From positions 1 to 34,527 of the forward strand of contig JAABSJ010000040.1 of the NCBI GenBank assembly GCA_011390515.1: a stretch of DNA of 34,527 nucleotides. The letters run 5' to 3'. The notes beneath the pieces are model-generated. The model was not told the origin of the DNA and ran no database searches. It was given only the letters and a program-made list of their open reading frames with translations. Position numbers and translations under genes: made by a program. Every line of letters begins with the position of its first letter. Positions within the stretch are counted from its first letter, which is position 1. This DNA is from Oscillatoria sp. GTDB lineage: Bacteria > Cyanobacteriota > Cyanobacteriia > Cyanobacteriales > Laspinemataceae. Below, piece after piece: positions 3,657 to 22,957 of this stretch.

Positions 3657-3777
3657 ATTACCAAACTGTGGTAAAAGAATGCGGGGGGATGGTCATCCCG
3701 GTAGAGCACCGGGGTGGAGGATGAATCATCAAAGTTCGCTTGAATGTTGTCTCATAAGGGAGGTAGATGCCACCGCA

Positions 3778-4488
3778 ATGGAAAAACCCAATCACGGCAT
3801 TGACTATGAAGGGACCTGGGATGCTTATGCCGAAATGTGGCAAAAGTTGCATCCTGAACTCGATCGCATTGGCGATGAATGGATTGGCAAAGGGGCGGGC
3901 GCTGCTAGTACCCTAGCGGAATATGAAACCCTGATTGAACAGCGCTTCATTCAGCCTTATATCGGGCCAGAACATCGGGTTTTAGAAATCGGTGTGGGGG
4001 GTGGCAAAACTGGCGGATTGTTGCTGAAACACTGCAAAACGCTCATTTGTGCGGACATTTCTAGTAAAATGCTAGAGGCCACGCGATCGCACCTCGGGGA
4101 CGATCGCGTCACCTATCTCAAACTCGATGGACTGACTCTAAAGGCGATCGAAGCTAATTCTGTTGATGTCTGTTTCTGTTACGATACGATGGTGCATTTG
4201 GAACCTCGCGATATTTTCAATTATCTGACTCAAATTCCGGCCTTACTGCGAGGCGATCGGCTCTGTGTCTTTCACCATACCAACATTCTCAGCGAGTTAG
4301 GTTGGCAAAAGTTTTTGAGTGAATGGCATCTCAATTTAAAAGGACAACGGCATGGTTCCGCCTTTTCCGTGATGAGCGATCGCATCATGGAACAATTTCT
4401 CACCCATCTCAATTATGAAATTCTAGTCAAAGACACTCAGTCGGTTCCCCGAGATTGCGTTTGGGTCTGCAAAGCTCCAATTGTTTAA
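3778..4488 (+). CDS. Class I SAM-dependent methyltransferase
   Basis: A 236-aa protein from the ATG at 3778. I chose this start because the residues before it are Cys- and Arg-rich and unlike the family, and because a GGGAGG lies about 14 bases upstream. In-frame ATGs at 3721 and earlier remain possible. Motif I is VLEIGVGGG (residues 68-76), followed by the acidic residue region CADIS (91-95) and the motif LDGL; VCFCYDTMVHLEP is the post-motif II strand. It resembles the small methyltransferases that decorate sugars or lipids in surface-glycan clusters. It follows the sulfotransferase by 121 bases and may belong to the same transcription unit. The substrate cannot be named. Confidence 0.85.
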   Translation: MEKPNHGIDYEGTWDAYAEMWQKLHPELDRIGDEWIGKGAGAASTLAEYETLIEQRFIQPYIGPEHRVLEIGVGGGKTGGLLLKHCKTLICADISSKMLEATRSHLGDDRVTYLKLDGLTLKAIEANSVDVCFCYDTMVHLEPRDIFNYLTQIPALLRGDRLCVFHHTNILSELGWQKFLSEWHLNLKGQRHGSAFSVMSDRIMEQFLTHLNYEILVKDTQSVPRDCVWVCKAPIV

Positions 4489-8853: not shown

Positions 8854-9438
8854 TTAGGAATAGTCTGCGATCAAAGTTTTGATTCTATCTTCTAAATTGC
8901 CAATATCTTCGGGGCAAAGTTGGCGAATTCGGTCATACCGGCGTGCTGCTTCTTCTGCGAGGGGTTTGCGCCCTTCTCCCGGTGCATCTAATAACCTGCG
9001 CTGTTGAGAAAATGGCAAAAAGTAAGTTTCTTTAGGATTAATTTCTTGGCGAATGACCTGCCAATTATAATCCGGTGGTAAATCTTGACCCGCTAAAACC
9101 CAAACCTCGATTTCTTGCCACGCATTTTCAGCCAAAAATAACCGGCGATTCCCTAAAATTTGATGAGCTTTCGTTTCCAGTTTGTCGAGGGCAACTTTTC
9201 GCCCTTCCTTTCCATCGCGATCGACACAAAGCAAAAACAAATCGACCATCGGATACTGATTAATAATACTTTCAATATTTTCCCATTTTAACGCTTCGCT
9301 GACACCTCCCAAAAGAGGGTCTTGGCAAATTCTGATTTTAGCGCTAGGTTTACCCAGACTTTTCATCAAGGCAGTGATGATGGGTTTGAGCATATATTGG
9401 TCCTTGCGAAAGTCTTCAGGAATAACTAAAACCCTCAT
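8854..9438 (-). CDS. TOPRIM-like / DUF4276-type protein partnered with AAA ATPase
   Basis: A 194-aa protein. A TOPRIM-like pattern is visible: an early acidic residue after a hydrophobic strand (VLVIPED, Glu8), then LFLLCVDRDG with the DxD pair Asp73/Asp75, then LFLAENAWQEIEVWVLAG (Glu104, Glu109, Glu111), which resembles the ENAIEAWLLA segment of DUF4276/RloB-type proteins. The start codon overlaps the stop of the ATPase gene (ATGA at 9435-9438), so the two are translationally coupled. In OLD, Gabija and PARIS-like systems a TOPRIM nuclease or effector works with an SMC-like ATPase. The assignment to this class is inference from motifs and pairing; no nuclease activity is shown. Confidence 0.7.
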   Translation of the reverse strand: MRVLVIPEDFRKDQYMLKPIITALMKSLGKPSAKIRICQDPLLGGVSEALKWENIESIINQYPMVDLFLLCVDRDGKEGRKVALDKLETKAHQILGNRRLFLAENAWQEIEVWVLAGQDLPPDYNWQVIRQEINPKETYFLPFSQQRRLLDAPGEGRKPLAEEAARRYDRIRQLCPEDIGNLEDRIKTLIADYS

Positions 9439-10724
9439 TCTTCCCCCTCATCACTCATAAATTCCATCACATTCTCTAACCAAGCTGATTCGTGGAGGTG
9501 GGCGAGGGTTTGTTTTTCCAAAACCTCTTGAGCATTCGGGATATCTAAAATCCGGATGATTTTGGCATCGGGTCTATTTTCTAAACGGTAGGTTAACGAG
9601 ACAGATTCTAAGAGATTAGGACTTAAAAGTCTGAGTAATTGGGAGGAATGAGTGGTGGCAATCATTTGGATTTTCCCTTGAGAAACTTGCCGTTCAATCA
9701 ATTGCAGTAAGAGATGTAACCGAGTGGGATGGATGCCATTATCTAATTCTTCAAAAAAGTAGAGTTTTGCCGGAGATGAACCCAGTAATGCAGCTATCAT
9801 GGCTAGAAATCTCAGAGTTCCATCGGAAGCACTGTAGGCTGATATTTTTTGTCCACTCTTTTCGACTAAAGTCAATAAAATTTTTCCGGTAAAATCTGAT
9901 GGAAACTCAAAATCTTGAGCATCCATTGGGGTGAGTTCTTGTATCCACTCCAGCAGGATGGCCTTTTTTTGGGGGTCTTGACAAATATCAAACAAGACAG
10001 AGGAGAGATTTTCGCCGCGATCGCCTAAAATAGTTTGTCCTGGAACCGATGGCATCCGGATCGCTTCTGGATTGAGGTCCAGAAATTGTATATCATTGAG
10101 AGCATTTAAACATTGTTCTGATATAGATTGAATGTACGTCCAGTGTTTTCCTGCAAAATCCTCGGCCAACATATAAGATATTAATGTGTAAACATTGATT
10201 TCCGAAAATTGTGAAACAGCAGGTTTGCCAGGAGATAAATTTAGTTTATAATACTTTCCATCATCGGTCTTAGTCTGGAAATATTCCTCGGCCCCATCAT
10301 TAATTAAAGTGGATTCAAAAACCGGATTGTGGAAATTTTTAATGTGGAGTTTTTCTCGACACACTCGGGGACTTCTGCCACTTTTCCCTGGATTTACGGT
10401 AATGCCATATATAGCTTCTTGCTGTTCCTCTTGATAGTCAACCGTAAATTCCACTTCCAGGGTAAAGGTTTCAGCATTAAGAAACGTAATTTCTCGCGTC
10501 CCTCCGCGAATTCCGCGCCACTGTAAAACTCCCCCTTCTACATATTTTTCGCCCATAATTTCGGCGAGATTATAGCCACGAGCAATGCCATGCAAAAACC
10601 GCAAAGCATCTCTAATATTACTTTTTCCCGATGCATTGGTTCCGATTAACAATGTAAAAGGACCGAGGATGAGTTCCGCCTCTTGAAAATTCTTAAAGTT
10701 TTTTAGGCGTATTTTTTTTAGCAT
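9435..10724 (-). CDS. SMC/RecF-like AAA ATPase (AAA_21/AAA_15 type)
   Basis: A 429-aa ABC-class ATPase without a long coiled coil. It opens LKKIRLKNFKNFQEAEL, the usual N-terminal strand of RecF/SMC-like ATPases. Walker A is GTNASGKS (28-35), the signature region is SASDGTLRFLAMIAALL (298-314), Walker B is LYFFEELD (321-328) with the unusual FFEE in place of the common IDEP, and the H-loop is TTHSSQLL (357-364). It directly precedes and overlaps a TOPRIM-like gene. Such pairs act in phage defence (OLD, PARIS and related) or DNA repair; defence is my preferred reading but is inferred. The 183-bp gap upstream probably holds its promoter. Confidence 0.88.
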   Translation of the reverse strand: MLKKIRLKNFKNFQEAELILGPFTLLIGTNASGKSNIRDALRFLHGIARGYNLAEIMGEKYVEGGVLQWRGIRGGTREITFLNAETFTLEVEFTVDYQEEQQEAIYGITVNPGKSGRSPRVCREKLHIKNFHNPVFESTLINDGAEEYFQTKTDDGKYYKLNLSPGKPAVSQFSEINVYTLISYMLAEDFAGKHWTYIQSISEQCLNALNDIQFLDLNPEAIRMPSVPGQTILGDRGENLSSVLFDICQDPQKKAILLEWIQELTPMDAQDFEFPSDFTGKILLTLVEKSGQKISAYSASDGTLRFLAMIAALLGSSPAKLYFFEELDNGIHPTRLHLLLQLIERQVSQGKIQMIATTHSSQLLRLLSPNLLESVSLTYRLENRPDAKIIRILDIPNAQEVLEKQTLAHLHESAWLENVMEFMSDEGEE

Positions 10725-10907: not shown

Positions 10908-12215
10908 CTAATCAGGACGTTGGATGATGGTTTCCATGACTCGGCGCTTATTTGCATCAATTCCAAATAGGCGAACATATTCCCCGGCATAGTTGGCTAA
11001 ACAGGATTCTAAGGAGGCGATCGCCTCAGATTCATTCCCGGTTTGAATGCATCCACAACTTTGCCAGGACCCGGTTCTAAACCGACGGCGATCGACGTGC
11101 TCAATGCCAATCGGATAACCCTGTGACACTAACTGTCTGAGTTGTTTCAACGCATCCAAATCTAAGGTTGCTGTAGCAGATTGAGGTTGGTTTTGGGGAC
11201 GAGACACCTGCGCAGAGGGAGAACCATTGGATGCTGTGGATTGAGCGTTAAAACCCTGGTTTTCCTGACGGATTCCATTCCCCGAGATAGGCGGTTGTCC
11301 CGGCATAAATCCATAGCGTTGTGCCGTGTTACTTTCCGCCAAAGAACGGTTATAAGCAGCAACCAATCGCAACTCTTGAATATGGTGCTGTTCCTTCACC
11401 ATTTGTTCCCCTTTTTCTATCAGGTGTTCCAGGCGGAAATCGGGTTTAATAAAGCTATGCTTTTCCGTACTGTTGGCAACTTTTAGGCCAATTTTATCAA
11501 ATCCAGTTTGTTCAATAAAGGCTAAAATTTGCTCATCATAAATACTGGCGCGCAAAGCACTAAAAAAGTCTATGGATTGACCTTCAAATTTAGACACCAG
11601 TTGTTCAATTTGACCTCGATTCAGTCCATCAGGGGTAAAAATTCCAGTGACAATTTCTAATCGGTCCTCTCGATTAGGTTCCCAATAGAATTTGTCCATG
11701 CGTCCATCACGAACCAAGGGTGCATACAGAGTACCAAAGTCATTCCCGGTGACAATAATCGGCACCCGAGGTAACGGTTCACTATCGTAGCTACCGGGAA
11801 GCTGAACATTGGTGGGATTATCGGCAATATTCATCAATGTGGCATTGACTAATTGCGTATTCACGGTGTATTGGGTTCCGCTATCTACTCGTCCTGCACC
11901 GGCATCAATATCATTAATCATTAACACGGCTAATTTGCCATGTTTGCTAATAATATCCGCTGCTTCTCGATACCGAAAGCGCACCAACCTAGAAGGGTCA
12001 CCTGCATCTGGGCTTTCTAATTCCCCGGCGGATAGATGAATGGCTTGGACTTTCATCCGTTGGAAAACTAATTCACATTGGAAGGATTTTCCTTCTCCTT
12101 TGTGACCATGAATTCCTAAAATTAGCGGGGCGTTAATGCCCGGTAAGTCGAGGAAATTCTTGGTAATATGAACGGCTAATTTGTTGAGGAATCTGGGGGC
12201 GATATAGTAAGTCAT
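10908..12215 (-). CDS. rca: RuBisCO activase with C-terminal small-subunit-like domain
   Basis: 435 aa. The AAA+ module has Walker A GHKGEGKS (37-44), Walker B VLMINDIDAG (97-106) and the segment GTQYTVNTQLVNATLMNIAD known from plant and cyanobacterial activases. A Gln/Ser/Asn-rich linker (~300-348) leads to a RbcS-like (SSUL) domain from residue ~351: IEHVDRRRFRTGSWQSC, then YVRLFGIDANKRRV. The SSUL cysteines (Cys387, Cys389, Cys404) could allow redox control. The enzyme uses ATP to remove inhibitory sugar phosphates from RuBisCO; the SSUL domain binds the holoenzyme and recruits activase into carboxysomes. It lies near bicA, which fits a carbon-concentrating role. The C-terminal domain is clearly present and full length. 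Confidence 0.96.
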   Translation of the reverse strand: MTYYIAPRFLNKLAVHITKNFLDLPGINAPLILGIHGHKGEGKSFQCELVFQRMKVQAIHLSAGELESPDAGDPSRLVRFRYREAADIISKHGKLAVLMINDIDAGAGRVDSGTQYTVNTQLVNATLMNIADNPTNVQLPGSYDSEPLPRVPIIVTGNDFGTLYAPLVRDGRMDKFYWEPNREDRLEIVTGIFTPDGLNRGQIEQLVSKFEGQSIDFFSALRASIYDEQILAFIEQTGFDKIGLKVANSTEKHSFIKPDFRLEHLIEKGEQMVKEQHHIQELRLVAAYNRSLAESNTAQRYGFMPGQPPISGNGIRQENQGFNAQSTASNGSPSAQVSRPQNQPQSATATLDLDALKQLRQLVSQGYPIGIEHVDRRRFRTGSWQSCGCIQTGNESEAIASLESCLANYAGEYVRLFGIDANKRRVMETIIQRPD

Positions 12216-19416: not shown

Positions 19417-19830
19417 TTAGGAGGGGACGATTTGAAATCCAGCTTGGAGAAAATGATGATCTAAAGTTAAAGCTGTAACAATCTCTCGTTCCTGCATAAC
19501 AATAAATGATAAACAATCAGTTAGAGAATAAGATTTATCTTGATGTCTTTTAAAATATTGCCATCCTTGGCTAAACAAATCTTGAGTAATCTCGATTAGC
19601 TCAATATCGGAACTTTCCAAAAAACGAGTCCCGACTTCAACTGCTTTAAAATGAAGATTCCGGCTGTTAAAAAATGTAACCACTTCATCAAAAATGTAAG
19701 TAGTCGTGACTATCCTGGGTTTAAATGGGGCTAAATCAGCCCAACTCCGTGCTACCTGTTGATGAGCATCTTCATTTCTAATTTCTAAAGCCAAAATATA
19801 GCTGGTATCCAAAAAGTAGATATTTTTCAC
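19417..19830 (-). CDS. vapC: PIN-domain toxin, VapC family
   Basis: 137 aa with the full set of PIN acidic residues: Asp8 (YFLDTS), Glu49 (YIFDEVV), Asp98 and Asp105 (HQDKSYSLTDCLSF) and Asp124 (ALTLDHHF). These coordinate Mg2+ or Mn2+ in a ribonuclease site; VapC toxins cut tRNA or rRNA and stop translation. The start overlaps the antitoxin stop by 4 bases (19827-19830), so the two are coupled. Length and motifs indicate an intact toxin. It is convergent with hicA, from which it is separated only by repeat copy A. Confidence 0.92.
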   Translation of the reverse strand: MKNIYFLDTSYILALEIRNEDAHQQVARSWADLAPFKPRIVTTTYIFDEVVTFFNSRNLHFKAVEVGTRFLESSDIELIEITQDLFSQGWQYFKRHQDKSYSLTDCLSFIVMQEREIVTALTLDHHFLQAGFQIVPS

Positions 19831-20036
19831 TGCTTATAAAGATAATTGTCGTGGTTAACAGCAGCATCTTTTACATCACAGTCAACAGGATTGGAACCTA
19901 AATCCCAAATAGAAGAGGTTCTCTTGATGCGCGTAATAATAATTTTATCATTTTCTTGGGTAAGCTCAAATTCTTGGTTTTCACCTAACATATCCTTTGG
20001 GATTAACAATCCTTGCTCGGTCGCTGTTAATTTCAT
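19827..20036 (-). CDS. AbrB/MazE-like antitoxin of the VapC pair
   Basis: 69 aa from the ATG at 20036; GGAGGT lies about 8 bases upstream, and the longer frame to 20141 has no family features. The N-terminal KLTATEQGLLIPKDML and FELTQENDKIIITRIK resemble a swapped-hairpin AbrB/MazE DNA-binding domain. The C-terminal ~30 residues (SIWDLGSNPVDCDVKDA) would be the toxin-binding tail; the SIWDLGSNPV type of motif recurs in antitoxins paired with PIN toxins. It should repress its own promoter and block the VapC encoded immediately downstream. The domain assignment is moderately sure and the pairing very likely. Confidence 0.82.
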   Translation of the reverse strand: MKLTATEQGLLIPKDMLGENQEFELTQENDKIIITRIKRTSSIWDLGSNPVDCDVKDAAVNHDNYLYKQ

Positions 20037-20134
20037 GCCGCCTGACCTCCATTGGTATTGAGTGAGTGGGTCTATTTGATTATAGTCTATTTGGGTGCGA
20101 TCACTCCCCAGGTCCGCCTCAGTCCCGTCATGGA

Positions 20135-20226
20135 TAAGCAAGGCGATCGCCGGTTAGTAGATTAAAAAATCAGAAATTCCAGAACGGGCTCATCTCTTCA
20201 ACCATCCCGGCGGTATTCAGCTATGC
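20135..20226 (+). repeat. Dispersed ~90-bp TA-island repeat, copy B
   Basis: Begins AAGCAAGGCGATCGCCGG and shares long identical stretches with copy A, including GTTAGTAGATTAAAAAATC and CATCTCTTCAACCATCCC-like sequence. It separates the AbrB/VapC module (minus) from the Phd-like antitoxin module (plus). Confidence 0.85.
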
Positions 20227-21149: not shown

Positions 21150-21341
21150 TTATCTTCCCAGAAGACGATCTATAAGAATCTTTAGTGCGACTTCCGTAAG
21201 CTTCAGAATTATCGGACCAGCGTTTTCTTTTAGCCATGCTAGTAAGCTCTCCTTAGATGCTCGAACTGCTTTTTGCTTTTGAGCGCTCTCTCGGGATAAT
21301 AATTGTCTTACTTGTTCTTCTTCTTCTGGTGTTAAAGCCAT
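21150..21341 (-). CDS. Small helical protein of unknown function
   Basis: 63 aa. I do not recognise the family. Residues 3-35 are strongly charged and helical (TPEEEEQVRQLLSRESAQKQ), and residues 41-63 form an amphipathic helix with a hydrophobic face (PIILKLTEVALKILIDRLL) ending in GR. GAGGTAGGG lies just before the ATG, so it is probably translated. It is the last gene of a three-gene minus-strand unit after two GTPases, 50 bases past the permuted GTPase, which suggests an accessory or membrane-contact role (inference only). Confidence 0.7.
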   Translation of the reverse strand: MALTPEEEEQVRQLLSRESAQKQKAVRASKESLLAWLKENAGPIILKLTEVALKILIDRLLGR

Positions 21342-21391: not shown

Positions 21392-22258
21392 CTATCTTTT
21401 AGGAATAGGATGATTTTTTAAGAGTGCTGTAATTTGTTTAATCATTTCAATATCATCCGAAAAATCTCGTGTATTTGCTTGTAAAATAAGCAAAACTATA
21501 TCGCACTCAGGAATTATCGCTTCATAGATTTTCTTATACTCTGGATCTTCGGCTTCACTACGGCCATATCCAGGTAAATCGACCACAGTTAACGTTCCGC
21601 CTGTTGATAGGGTAAATTCTTTTGTCTGTGCCTTTGTCGTACCAACAGTTGTGGGGCTTGTTTTTAATTGAGCATTAAACAAATTATTAATGGTTGTTGT
21701 TTTCCCAACACCAGATTTGCCAATCACAGCTACTTTTGGTGGATATTTAGTTTCTTGTTCTAGTTTGTGCAAAATTGAATTGAATTCTTCATCAGACATA
21801 AAATTTTTCAGATAATCGGGATTGTTTTTATTAGAATCAGATTCTCCCTCAGCAGAGGTTCCCATTTTTCTACGCTTTTCATCTGCAACAGCTTTAATTT
21901 CTGAATCAGCTAATTCAAATGGATCGGCAGGTTCTACACTATCAATCTTAAATCCGGCCTCCGCATTTTGAATTATTTTCGTCAATAAAGGGATTAATCT
22001 GTAACGTTTGAACGCAGAATAGTATTCTATATTTATTGCAGATATTTCAGTCGAATTTTCAATCTGTTTTATAATATCTTGACAACGCTTATTTATCTGA
22101 TTTTCCGCATCATTGGTGGGACTATTTAACCGCTCATTCCAGCCGCCAGGAATCATTTGATCCACTTGATTTAAACCGACAACAATCCTAAACTGCCGGG
22201 TTGGTTTTCTTCTTCCCGACAACCAGTTAGATATCTTATTTTGTATTTCTTCAAACAT
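21392..22258 (-). CDS. Circularly permuted P-loop GTPase (order G4-G5-G1-G2-G3)
   Basis: 288 aa in one uninterrupted frame. The N-terminal third holds what is normally the C-terminal half of a GTPase: strand FRIVVGLNQVD with G4 NQVD (30-33), then YYSAFKRYRLIPLL as G5 (79-92) and a family tail (ADPFELADSEIKAVADE). A polar linker (~130-152) leads to the normal N-terminal half: G1 GKSGVGKTT (180-188), a Thr-rich switch I (203-208), G3 DLPGYG (227-232) and the following helix, ending HPIPKR. The start is solid: AAGGAG lies ~9 bases upstream, overlapping the end of the first GTPase gene. RsgA/YlqF/YqeH have this motif order, but the rest resembles Era/YfjP-like cyanobacterial GTPases. Confidence 0.88.
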   Translation of the reverse strand: MFEEIQNKISNWLSGRRKPTRQFRIVVGLNQVDQMIPGGWNERLNSPTNDAENQINKRCQDIIKQIENSTEISAINIEYYSAFKRYRLIPLLTKIIQNAEAGFKIDSVEPADPFELADSEIKAVADEKRRKMGTSAEGESDSNKNNPDYLKNFMSDEEFNSILHKLEQETKYPPKVAVIGKSGVGKTTTINNLFNAQLKTSPTTVGTTKAQTKEFTLSTGGTLTVVDLPGYGRSEAEDPEYKKIYEAIIPECDIVLLILQANTRDFSDDIEMIKQITALLKNHPIPKR

Positions 22259-22264
22259 ACTCGA

Positions 22265-22957
22265 TTAACTCCTTTTCAAGATTTTTGTTCTCAATTTTTC
22301 TATCCCCCATCCGTAAAAGGATGTGTAGGGTACGATGTGATTTTTCTGAAAGATTATCGATCCATTGATTGCTCCATCAAAAATGCCGTAAATATCAGCA
22401 ACTTTTTCGGGAATTATTTTGAGCTGGTCTTCGGAAGGTTCGGCTGTGGCAATTTTAAATGGCTTCTCGCCCTCATACACTCCCAGACAATCTATTTTGT
22501 TAAGGGCGACTATTAAAAATAAAGACTTTTTGAAAAAAGGTTTTAACTGCTTCAAAAAAATTTCATCCCGTTTGTAGGCCCTCGTATTAGCTTGAGTCAC
22601 CCAGACTAAGGAATCGGCTTGAGGAATCCATTTTTTGTAGTAAGCCATGTATTTTTTATCCCCAGCTAGACTCTCGCCAATTCCCGGTAGATCCACCACT
22701 CTTACTTGCTTATAGGGAAAACCCGAGTAATGAGAGGCATCTATATAGGCAATATGAGGCTTTTTAGTACAAGCCACAGCATGATCGGTGGCCCAGTTTA
22801 AGCCAAATAGGACGTTGAGGGTGCTGCTTTTTCCCACTCCAGTTTTGCCAAAAAATAAAACTGTTAGGGTGTCGTTTTTAACCCGGACTAAAGATTTGAT
22901 CCATTGGATTAAGGATCTGACGAGTTGGGCTAAAGGTCTGAGGATTTGTTTAAGCAT
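22265..22957 (-). CDS. Era/YfjP-like P-loop GTPase
   Basis: 230 aa with a conventional motif order: G1 GKTGVGKSS (~37-45), G3 DLPGIG (~89-94), G4 NKID and G5 YTSFYGWGIEKL near the C-terminus. The first 27 residues (LKQILRPLAQLVRSLIQWIK) form a basic amphipathic helix that could dock on membrane. It is followed 6 bases later by the permuted GTPase of the same broad family, so the two are probably co-translated and may heterodimerise. Substrate and partner are unknown. The Shine-Dalgarno before the ATG at 22957 is poor. Confidence 0.88.
   Translation of the reverse strand: MLKQILRPLAQLVRSLIQWIKSLVRVKNDTLTVLFFGKTGVGKSSTLNVLFGLNWATDHAVACTKKPHIAYIDASHYSGFPYKQVRVVDLPGIGESLAGDKKYMAYYKKWIPQADSLVWVTQANTRAYKRDEIFLKQLKPFFKKSLFLIVALNKIDCLGVYEGEKPFKIATAEPSEDQLKIIPEKVADIYGIFDGAINGSIIFQKNHIVPYTSFYGWGIEKLRTKILKRS

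Follow-up and report, generated by a model that had tools for sequence, protein, structure and literature searches.

A GTPase gene with G4 and G5 ahead of G1

Does a bacterial GTPase gene whose G4 and G5 motifs precede G1, G2 and G3 belong to the permuted families already described, or does it represent a permutation that arose separately? The question is raised by a frame in a 34,527-nucleotide stretch of Oscillatoria sp. DNA (contig JAABSJ010000040.1; the whole stretch is called the window here). An earlier note, made from the letters alone, had described one intact frame preceded by a ribosome-binding site and carrying G4 and G5 ahead of G1 and G3, and all of this was confirmed, with motif positions that agree by residue. 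The frame, designated cpB, lies on the minus strand, which the note had left unstated, and reads from an ATG at 22258-22256 to a stop codon at 21392-21394 with zero internal stops (Table 1). An AGGAG was found before the ATG, and AAGGAG precedes cpB in all four Laspinema-group loci compared.

Along the cpB chain, the order is G4-G5-linker-G1-G2-G3. G4 is NQVD (residues 30-33; the strand 5 and G4 string GLNQVD spans 28-33), the G5-like motif is YSA (80-82), G1 is GKSGVGKT (180-187), the G2-like motif is TTVGTT (203-208) and G3 is DLPG (227-230), followed by a tyrosine and not by a glutamine. After G3 come helix 2, strand 4 (IVLLILQAN) and helix 3, and the chain stops six residues later. The tail ADPFELADSE (111-120) is followed by a variable linker, the helix SDEEFNSILHKLEQE and strand 1. 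From these motifs, cpB is predicted to bind and hydrolyze GTP.

Table 1. Features of the cpB locus in the window, and canonical homologue B at two other loci (last row)
Feature	Coordinates	Strand	Basis or remark
cpB, circularly permuted GTPase, 288 aa	21392..22258, including stop	-	ORF translation, motifs, orthologues
Ribosome-binding site of cpB, AGGAG	22269..22273	-	within final codons of gene A, 10 bases 5' of ATG
cpB N-terminal part, residues 24-118: strand 5 and G4 (22160-22171), G5 (22013-22021), helix 5	21905..22189	-	motifs; half-search against canonical B
cpB junction, residues 111-172: canonical C-terminal tail, short linker, canonical N-terminal helix SDEEFNSILHKLEQE	21743..21928	-	rotated alignment with canonical B
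cpB C-terminal part: G1 (21698-21721), G2 (21635-21652), G3 (21569-21580), helix 2/strand 4/helix 3 (21413-21544), chain end	21392..21742	-	motifs; helices and strands from low-confidence model
GTPase A, 230 aa, canonical G1-G3-G4	22265..22957	-	stops six bases short of cpB
Gene C, 63 aa, small protein, helical by sequence prediction	21150..21341	-	after cpB
Divergent HTH and NB-ARC (STAND-type) ATPase, 459 aa	23208..24587	+	NB-ARC above Pfam cut-off; HTH profile
Canonical B	L059 2862-3674 (271 codons); L061 2642-3442 (267 codons)		G1 at residue 52, G3 at 99, G4 at 165 of the frame

Predicted closure of the G domain

The earlier note had pointed to structure prediction as a way to see whether a complete G domain forms. 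The order of strands and helices in an AlphaFold2 model of cpB agreed with that read from the sequence, but at a mean pLDDT of 53 (four rows) the model was too poor to reveal a closed domain; the model of gene A reached 42 (four rows). A Foldseek search with the cpB model gave 11 matches at E 0.001 or better, including HflX, GTPBP6, EngB/YsxC, FeoB and an IRG, with low TM-scores (query-normalised 0.17-0.32 among the 50 matches listed).

The cpB chain is likely to fold into a single closed G domain. The tail, linker and helix, about 60 residues in all, would bridge helix 5 and strand 1 and close the domain, so that switch I, switch II and helix 2 would stay one stretch and only strand 5/G4 and G5 would come from the N-terminal part. 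Since switch II would be continuous with helix 2, no C-terminal domain should be needed to hold it, unlike in RsgA, YlqF and YqeH. Alternatively, the half-domains might pair in trans as a domain-swapped dimer or polymer, the permutation thereby building an obligate oligomer; a long and variable linker would permit such a swap, and the septin, IRG and AIG1-like relatives are oligomer-forming families. However, the linker is equally long enough for closure in cis and no structure shows a swap, making this arrangement unlikely.

Both halves of cpB come from one canonical GTPase

Two related genomes, G394 and G395, each carry the permuted gene plus a canonical homologue, B, which is about 270 residues long and lies in an equivalent operon. 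When the halves of cpB were compared separately with 54 proteins (three exact duplicates removed), both led to B. The N-terminal half found its best unpermuted match in the C-terminal part of the G394/G395 B proteins (50% over 94 aa, E ~1e-26; next 2e-10), and the best such match of the C-terminal half was again B (41% over 128 aa, E ~5e-34; next 2e-24). Swapping the halves, with rotations sampled in steps of 4, raised the alignment score of window cpB against B from 277 in native order to 476 on rotation at residue 140 (best rotation 477) and that of G394 cpB from 304 to 523, and none of seven controls (six canonical relatives and RsgA) gained on rotation. Rotated window cpB and canonical B share 104 identities among 229 aligned residues, and both have NQVD instead of NKxD at G4. 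The C-terminus HPIPKR had been expected to join FRIVVGLNQVD at the N-terminus, and the canonical homologue indeed reads straight across that join.

Phylogenetic analysis gave the same picture. In a 48-row tree of rotated or canonical domains (cpB_G262part, u_L067, L117gtp, Obg, A_G395, B_G395 and Ap_G395 left out; Der split into two domains), the six cpB sequences grouped together at 100/99, with B as their sister at 99/95. Trees of the separate halves (40 of the 48 rows, the other 8 being distant) also placed B as sister, at 94/94 for the G1-G3 half and 92/83 for the G4-G5 half. The half-tree values fall just short of what the program counts as firm (95 and 80), and the branches are long. In AU tests, a clade of cpB with RsgA was disfavoured (p 0.030, with a very long RsgA branch), and a clade of cpB with the A partners was not rejected (p 0.153), although B is the sister favoured in the unconstrained tree and in each half-tree. 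Together, these results show that the two parts of cpB are the swapped halves of one canonical GTPase, whose descendant B survives in G394 and G395. A fusion of halves from two different, separate full-length GTPases is thus out, as both halves share the same sister.

Since the other relatives of the clade have G1 ahead of G3 and, where it could be found, of the G4 part (the L043 protein has an isolated G4-like string at residue 16, read as chance), the permuted order is the derived state. We conclude that cpB is almost certainly a real, derived permutation. A likeness between the first residues of G394 cpB and canonical B (an LFxK leader in both) was too short to count.

The break differs from those of known permuted GTPases

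The YRG proteins (RsgA/YjeQ, YlqF/RbgA, YqeH and YawG) share the order G4-G5-G1-G2-G3 with cpB, and likewise have no glutamine after the DxPG of G3: the residue is a tyrosine in cpB and a hydrophobic one in YqeH, according to a section of PMC2848588. The earlier note had assigned cpB the same topology as RsgA, YlqF and YqeH, which holds for the motif order but not for the break. According to Elias and Novotny (PMC2430557, in part), strand 3 and helix 2 are not connected in YRG proteins, and in YqeH relocation has placed helix 2 N-terminally and switch II C-terminally (PMC2848588, in part). In RsgA of the window genome, as read from its sequence, the strand 4/helix 3 sequence directly precedes G4 (this RsgA was rotated by hand at the strand-4/helix-3 point for the alignment). 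In cpB, on the other hand, motifs and the low-confidence model place helix 2, strand 4 and helix 3 all after G3. YRG proteins are therefore cut just after G3/switch II, whereas the sequence reading of cpB puts its cut after helix 3, between helix 3 and strand 5. Motif order alone is a poor guide, because two independent permutations can share one order. cpB also differs in having no domain C-terminal to the G domain, as its chain ends 6 residues past predicted helix 3, and in its place in the tree.

Profile searches gave further evidence on whether cpB is a divergent YRG member. Besides the shared motif order, weak partial Pfam/NCBIfam matches to the three families speak for membership, all below cut-off (RsgA_GTPase, 21.6 of 30 bits; YqeH, 24.7 of 297.4; YlqF, 19.8 of 208.2). 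However, these matches span G1-G3 only, lie far below their cut-offs and are weaker than those to MMR_HSR1 (Pfam) and to YsxC, EngA and Era (NCBIfam, likewise below their cut-offs). With a different break, RsgA outside the cpB group in the tree, the AU result for RsgA and a canonical sister in existence, a YRG origin is extremely improbable, and we regard membership as ruled out by break, profiles and tree. As the earlier note had proposed, cpB is an independent permutation; it lies outside RsgA, YlqF and YqeH and has a new breakpoint.

The other known case, cpRAS, is also an independent permutation of the GTPase domain, but its order is G3-G4-G5-G1-G2, its break lies between strands 2 and 3 and it occurs in eukaryotic RAS-like proteins (PMC2430557, in part); in cpB, G3 comes last. 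As recounted in a portion of PMC2430557, an early survey (Anand et al. 2006) regarded YRG as the sole possibility for a permuted GTPase; cpRAS was one exception. Our full-text literature search (titles and abstract starts among the matches listed, with few subscription journals) returned YRG and cpRAS as the only permuted GTPases.

Family placement

Pfam MMR_HSR1 matched cpB with 54.8 bits (cut-off 21.9), and AIG1, Dynamin_N, IIGP, Septin and Gtr1_RagA also exceeded their cut-offs. Among PDB sequences, 55 distinct matches were obtained at E 0.01 or better, with septins, EngA, EngB and an immunity-related GTPase on top; all were partial, the best stretches lying within profile positions 99-280. 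Septin, EngA, EngB/YsxC, IRG and Era are thus distant, partial matches. Elsewhere in its own genome, cpB was best matched by gene A (38% across G1-G3, E 1.6e-11). Among 65 matching plasmid records, none covered 80% of cpB; of the 20 listed, five were annotated ykfA and others "GTPase family protein", each match being a single piece in the G1-G3 half (31-37% over 40-49% of the protein). The YfjP/YkfA-like proteins of E. coli and plasmids are therefore the best annotated relatives of that half among the plasmid matches listed, but those matches are confined to it. YkfA itself has the canonical motif order. Two short patterns gave 86 matches on viral contigs and no relative, which is weak as a negative. 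A viral or plasmid home for cpB did not emerge from these searches.

Sequence similarity thus identifies cpB as a TRAFAC GTPase near YfjP/YkfA and the septin-like branch, homologous over the whole G domain to those of the cyanobacterial B/YfjP-like kind and departing from their canonical order. Its flanks had earlier been likened to Era/YfjP-like GTPases: the YfjP part stood, through the ykfA-annotated plasmid matches, but Era proper gave weak, distant and partial matches.

The permuted gene is intact and under selection

The earlier note had also suggested looking for the same order in related genomes, and it was seen intact in six others (loci L005, L006, L007, L058/L060 and L063), at 61-81% identity; one further genome has a truncated copy. 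Six short patterns, run against 84,980 species genomes, returned 33 stretches, 3 of which encode a relative: those of Laspinema olomoucense D3b, Phormidium pseudopriestleyi FRX01 and Laspinema palackyanum D2a, all permuted and 75-81% identical in the best segment. Together with the window's genome, G394, G395 and G484, these make up the seven intact genomes; G387, G389 and G392 are apparently the same three strains (same frame lengths and gene C frames) and were counted once. A whole-genome protein-level search found the permuted gene in 6/14 genomes of the family, the window's included. It was present in 8/291 genomes of an order-wide sample, counting the truncated copy in G262. In a phylum sample, with a limit of E 1e-20, it was present in 2/386 genomes. 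For the order-wide and phylum samples, scoring was confined to the top 6 or 8 candidates of each genome. With the G395 copy as query, the families of G262 and G484 yielded 1/61 and 1/8 genomes, namely G262 and G484 themselves.

The dN/dS ratio of cpB was 0.11-0.37 in all 15 pairs of six distinct coding sequences, and that of gene A was 0.12-0.26; cpB is under purifying selection. A misassembly, a frameshift or a decaying remnant of two tandem GTPase genes with no one-protein function, which the tandem GTPase genes at the locus and the truncated G262 copy might suggest, is very improbable given seven genomes with the same intact frame (one of them, G395, a single contig; six are further assemblies, which rule out an assembly error here), these dN/dS values, the retention of all five motifs and the origin of both halves from one protein and not from A and B. 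Overall, we consider it likely that cpB is a true TRAFAC GTPase, kept by selection, that arose from one canonical GTPase by circular permutation; this is the best explanation of the data.

Two copies depart from the common form. In G262 (L064), the only copy is truncated, its frame beginning after G4 near a contig end. It lies in a 1.4-kb piece (L064 3127-4512) that holds cpB minus its first ~35 residues and three C-type frames and is 93% identical in DNA to G394, though G262 belongs to another family of the order; beyond this piece, no similarity was found between G262 and the G394/G395 loci. The G262 copy was probably moved horizontally. In Laspinema palackyanum, the start of cpB (L007 3827-4030) contains an imperfect repeat of ~26 residues with a second, altered G4-like motif, GLNQSD, ahead of GLNQVD; this is a small tandem duplication at the new N-terminus.

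Origin of the permutation

In canonical B, a short leader and then a helix precede strand 1, and the chain ends with the tail PADPTELISNPEVREF; in cpB, the B-type C-terminal tail runs directly into the B-type N-terminal helix. Because the cpB linker thus consists of a canonical tail followed by a canonical N-terminal helix, tandem duplication, already suspected in the earlier note, is the simplest reading. Two tandem B copies would have fused in frame, the C-terminal tail of copy 1 to the N-terminal helix of copy 2. The G1-G3 part of copy 1 and the G4-G5 part of copy 2 would then have been lost. This route of duplication, fusion and trimming is probably the correct one; a duplicated B-B intermediate was not seen among the genomes searched. 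As a separate matter, A and cpB are in the same frame in the window and at L005-L007, L058, L060 and L063, but read-through of the stop codon from A into cpB was given no weight because the canonical A'-B' genes of L059 are in different frames (2237 and 2862).

A conserved locus with two GTPases, small C proteins and an HTH protein

Gene A stands beside cpB in all seven intact loci, and one to three copies of gene C (frames of 62-78 codons) follow cpB in 8/8 permuted loci; C-type frames were also found in 2/2 B loci and 2/27 other canonical loci. The window's gene C had no Pfam match. The C family thus occurs as one to three tandem copies and at times as part of a longer frame, as in L059, where the first C-type frame is 200 codons long (3678-4277). 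It looks like an adaptor or effector module. A membrane-active tail is not supported for the window's gene C, as the hydrophobic moment of its last 20 residues was reached by a fraction of 0.875 of shuffles; for G394 gene C the fraction was 0.042, weakly supporting such a tail.

We examined 37 loci for the divergent gene, leaving out second copies of the same places and long distant relatives (frames >400 aa). A sigma-like HTH protein was head-to-head with the GTPase gene in 23 of these: 7/8 permuted loci, 2/2 B loci and 14/27 other canonical loci. The HTH profile was seeded from six of the 37 loci, and many loci have only ~1.5 kb of flank, so absences mean little; the match at L070 was weak (1.5e-5), and the HTH gene lay 1.1-1.4 kb off in L067, L042 and L053. 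As this HTH has 9 matches in the window genome, the pairing is, by informal judgement, hard to ascribe to chance. Of three HTH proteins scanned with Pfam, the window's (33.5 bits) and that of L062 (38 bits) exceeded the NB-ARC cut-off of 23.5, and the L059 protein had no Pfam match. The HTH protein also faces a single canonical GTPase (e.g. L062, L068 and L072), and HTH protein plus GTPase is a candidate for an undescribed two-gene system. The canonical A-B-C operons of G394/G395 (L059 and L061) resemble the cpB locus in their tandem GTPases, C-type protein and divergent HTH protein, B being the sister of cpB; they differ in the normal order of B and, in L059, in the long C-type frame and the HTH protein lacking a Pfam match.

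A working model of function

With moderate confidence, we propose that cpB acts as a nucleotide switch and has as its partner canonical GTPase A, encoded in the same operon; this nucleotide-dependent pair would control the small C proteins as adaptors or effectors, and the divergent HTH protein would serve as regulator or sensor of the system. Since tyrosine and not glutamine follows G3, as in the HAS type, in which a hydrophobic residue replaces the catalytic glutamine (PMC2848588, in part), a potassium-assisted mechanism is possible for cpB.

By analogy, the A-cpB pair, the C proteins and the HTH protein may work like NTP-dependent conflict (defence) systems; parts of PMC7159879 and PMC8195603 describe conflict and signalling systems built on GTPase and STAND switches. 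A defence or conflict role as such, suggested by gene context, is a tentative proposal. In PADLOC, both cpB (29.3 bits) and A (28.3 bits) matched LeoA-type GTPases weakly and partially. The DO-GTPase conflict systems are similar in their paralogous GTPase pairs (38% of those systems) and predicted defence role, but they contain GAP1 together with a Walker B glutamate and are nearly absent from cyanobacteria, according to a part of PMC7159879. The string "permut" occurs 0 times in PMC7159879 and once in PMC8195603, for a transglutaminase. Among five window proteins scanned against Pfam, none was named GAP1. The DO-GTPase profile, under what we take to be its Pfam name, was absent from all 16 Pfam families for A and from the 25 listed of 34 for cpB. 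Nothing in these scans pointed to the cpB locus being a DO-GTPase system.

Significance

On balance, we consider it reasonably likely that cpB is the product of a third, independent permutation of the GTPase fold in nature, at an undescribed break between helix 3 and strand 5, and recent enough for the unpermuted sister to survive in the same genomes with a matching operon layout. On this reading, cpB belongs to an undescribed cyanobacterial system in which two GTPases are accompanied by a divergent HTH(-NB-ARC) protein and by small helical proteins, and the permutation may have changed how the pair assembles. cpB adds another GTPase breakpoint, in bacteria, and its unpermuted sister is still present in a genome that also has the permuted gene; we know of no such sister for YRG. 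The cpB/B pair allows the route of duplication, fusion and trimming to be tested on two natural proteins, and comparison of cpB, B and swapped versions would address the effect of permutation on switch II, nucleotide turnover and pairing. The locus also flags an unstudied GTPase-pair system in cyanobacteria.

Other genes in the window

Beside the GTPase locus, a PIN-domain gene (46.4 bits) and a short overlapping upstream gene with no Pfam match (19417-20141) have a toxin-antitoxin layout. At 8854-10724, an AAA_21 ATPase (116 bits) is followed by an overlapping 194-aa gene with no Pfam match, the layout of a two-gene defence or OLD-like system. The window also encodes, at 10908-12215, a Rubisco activase AAA protein fused to a RuBisCO small-subunit-like domain.
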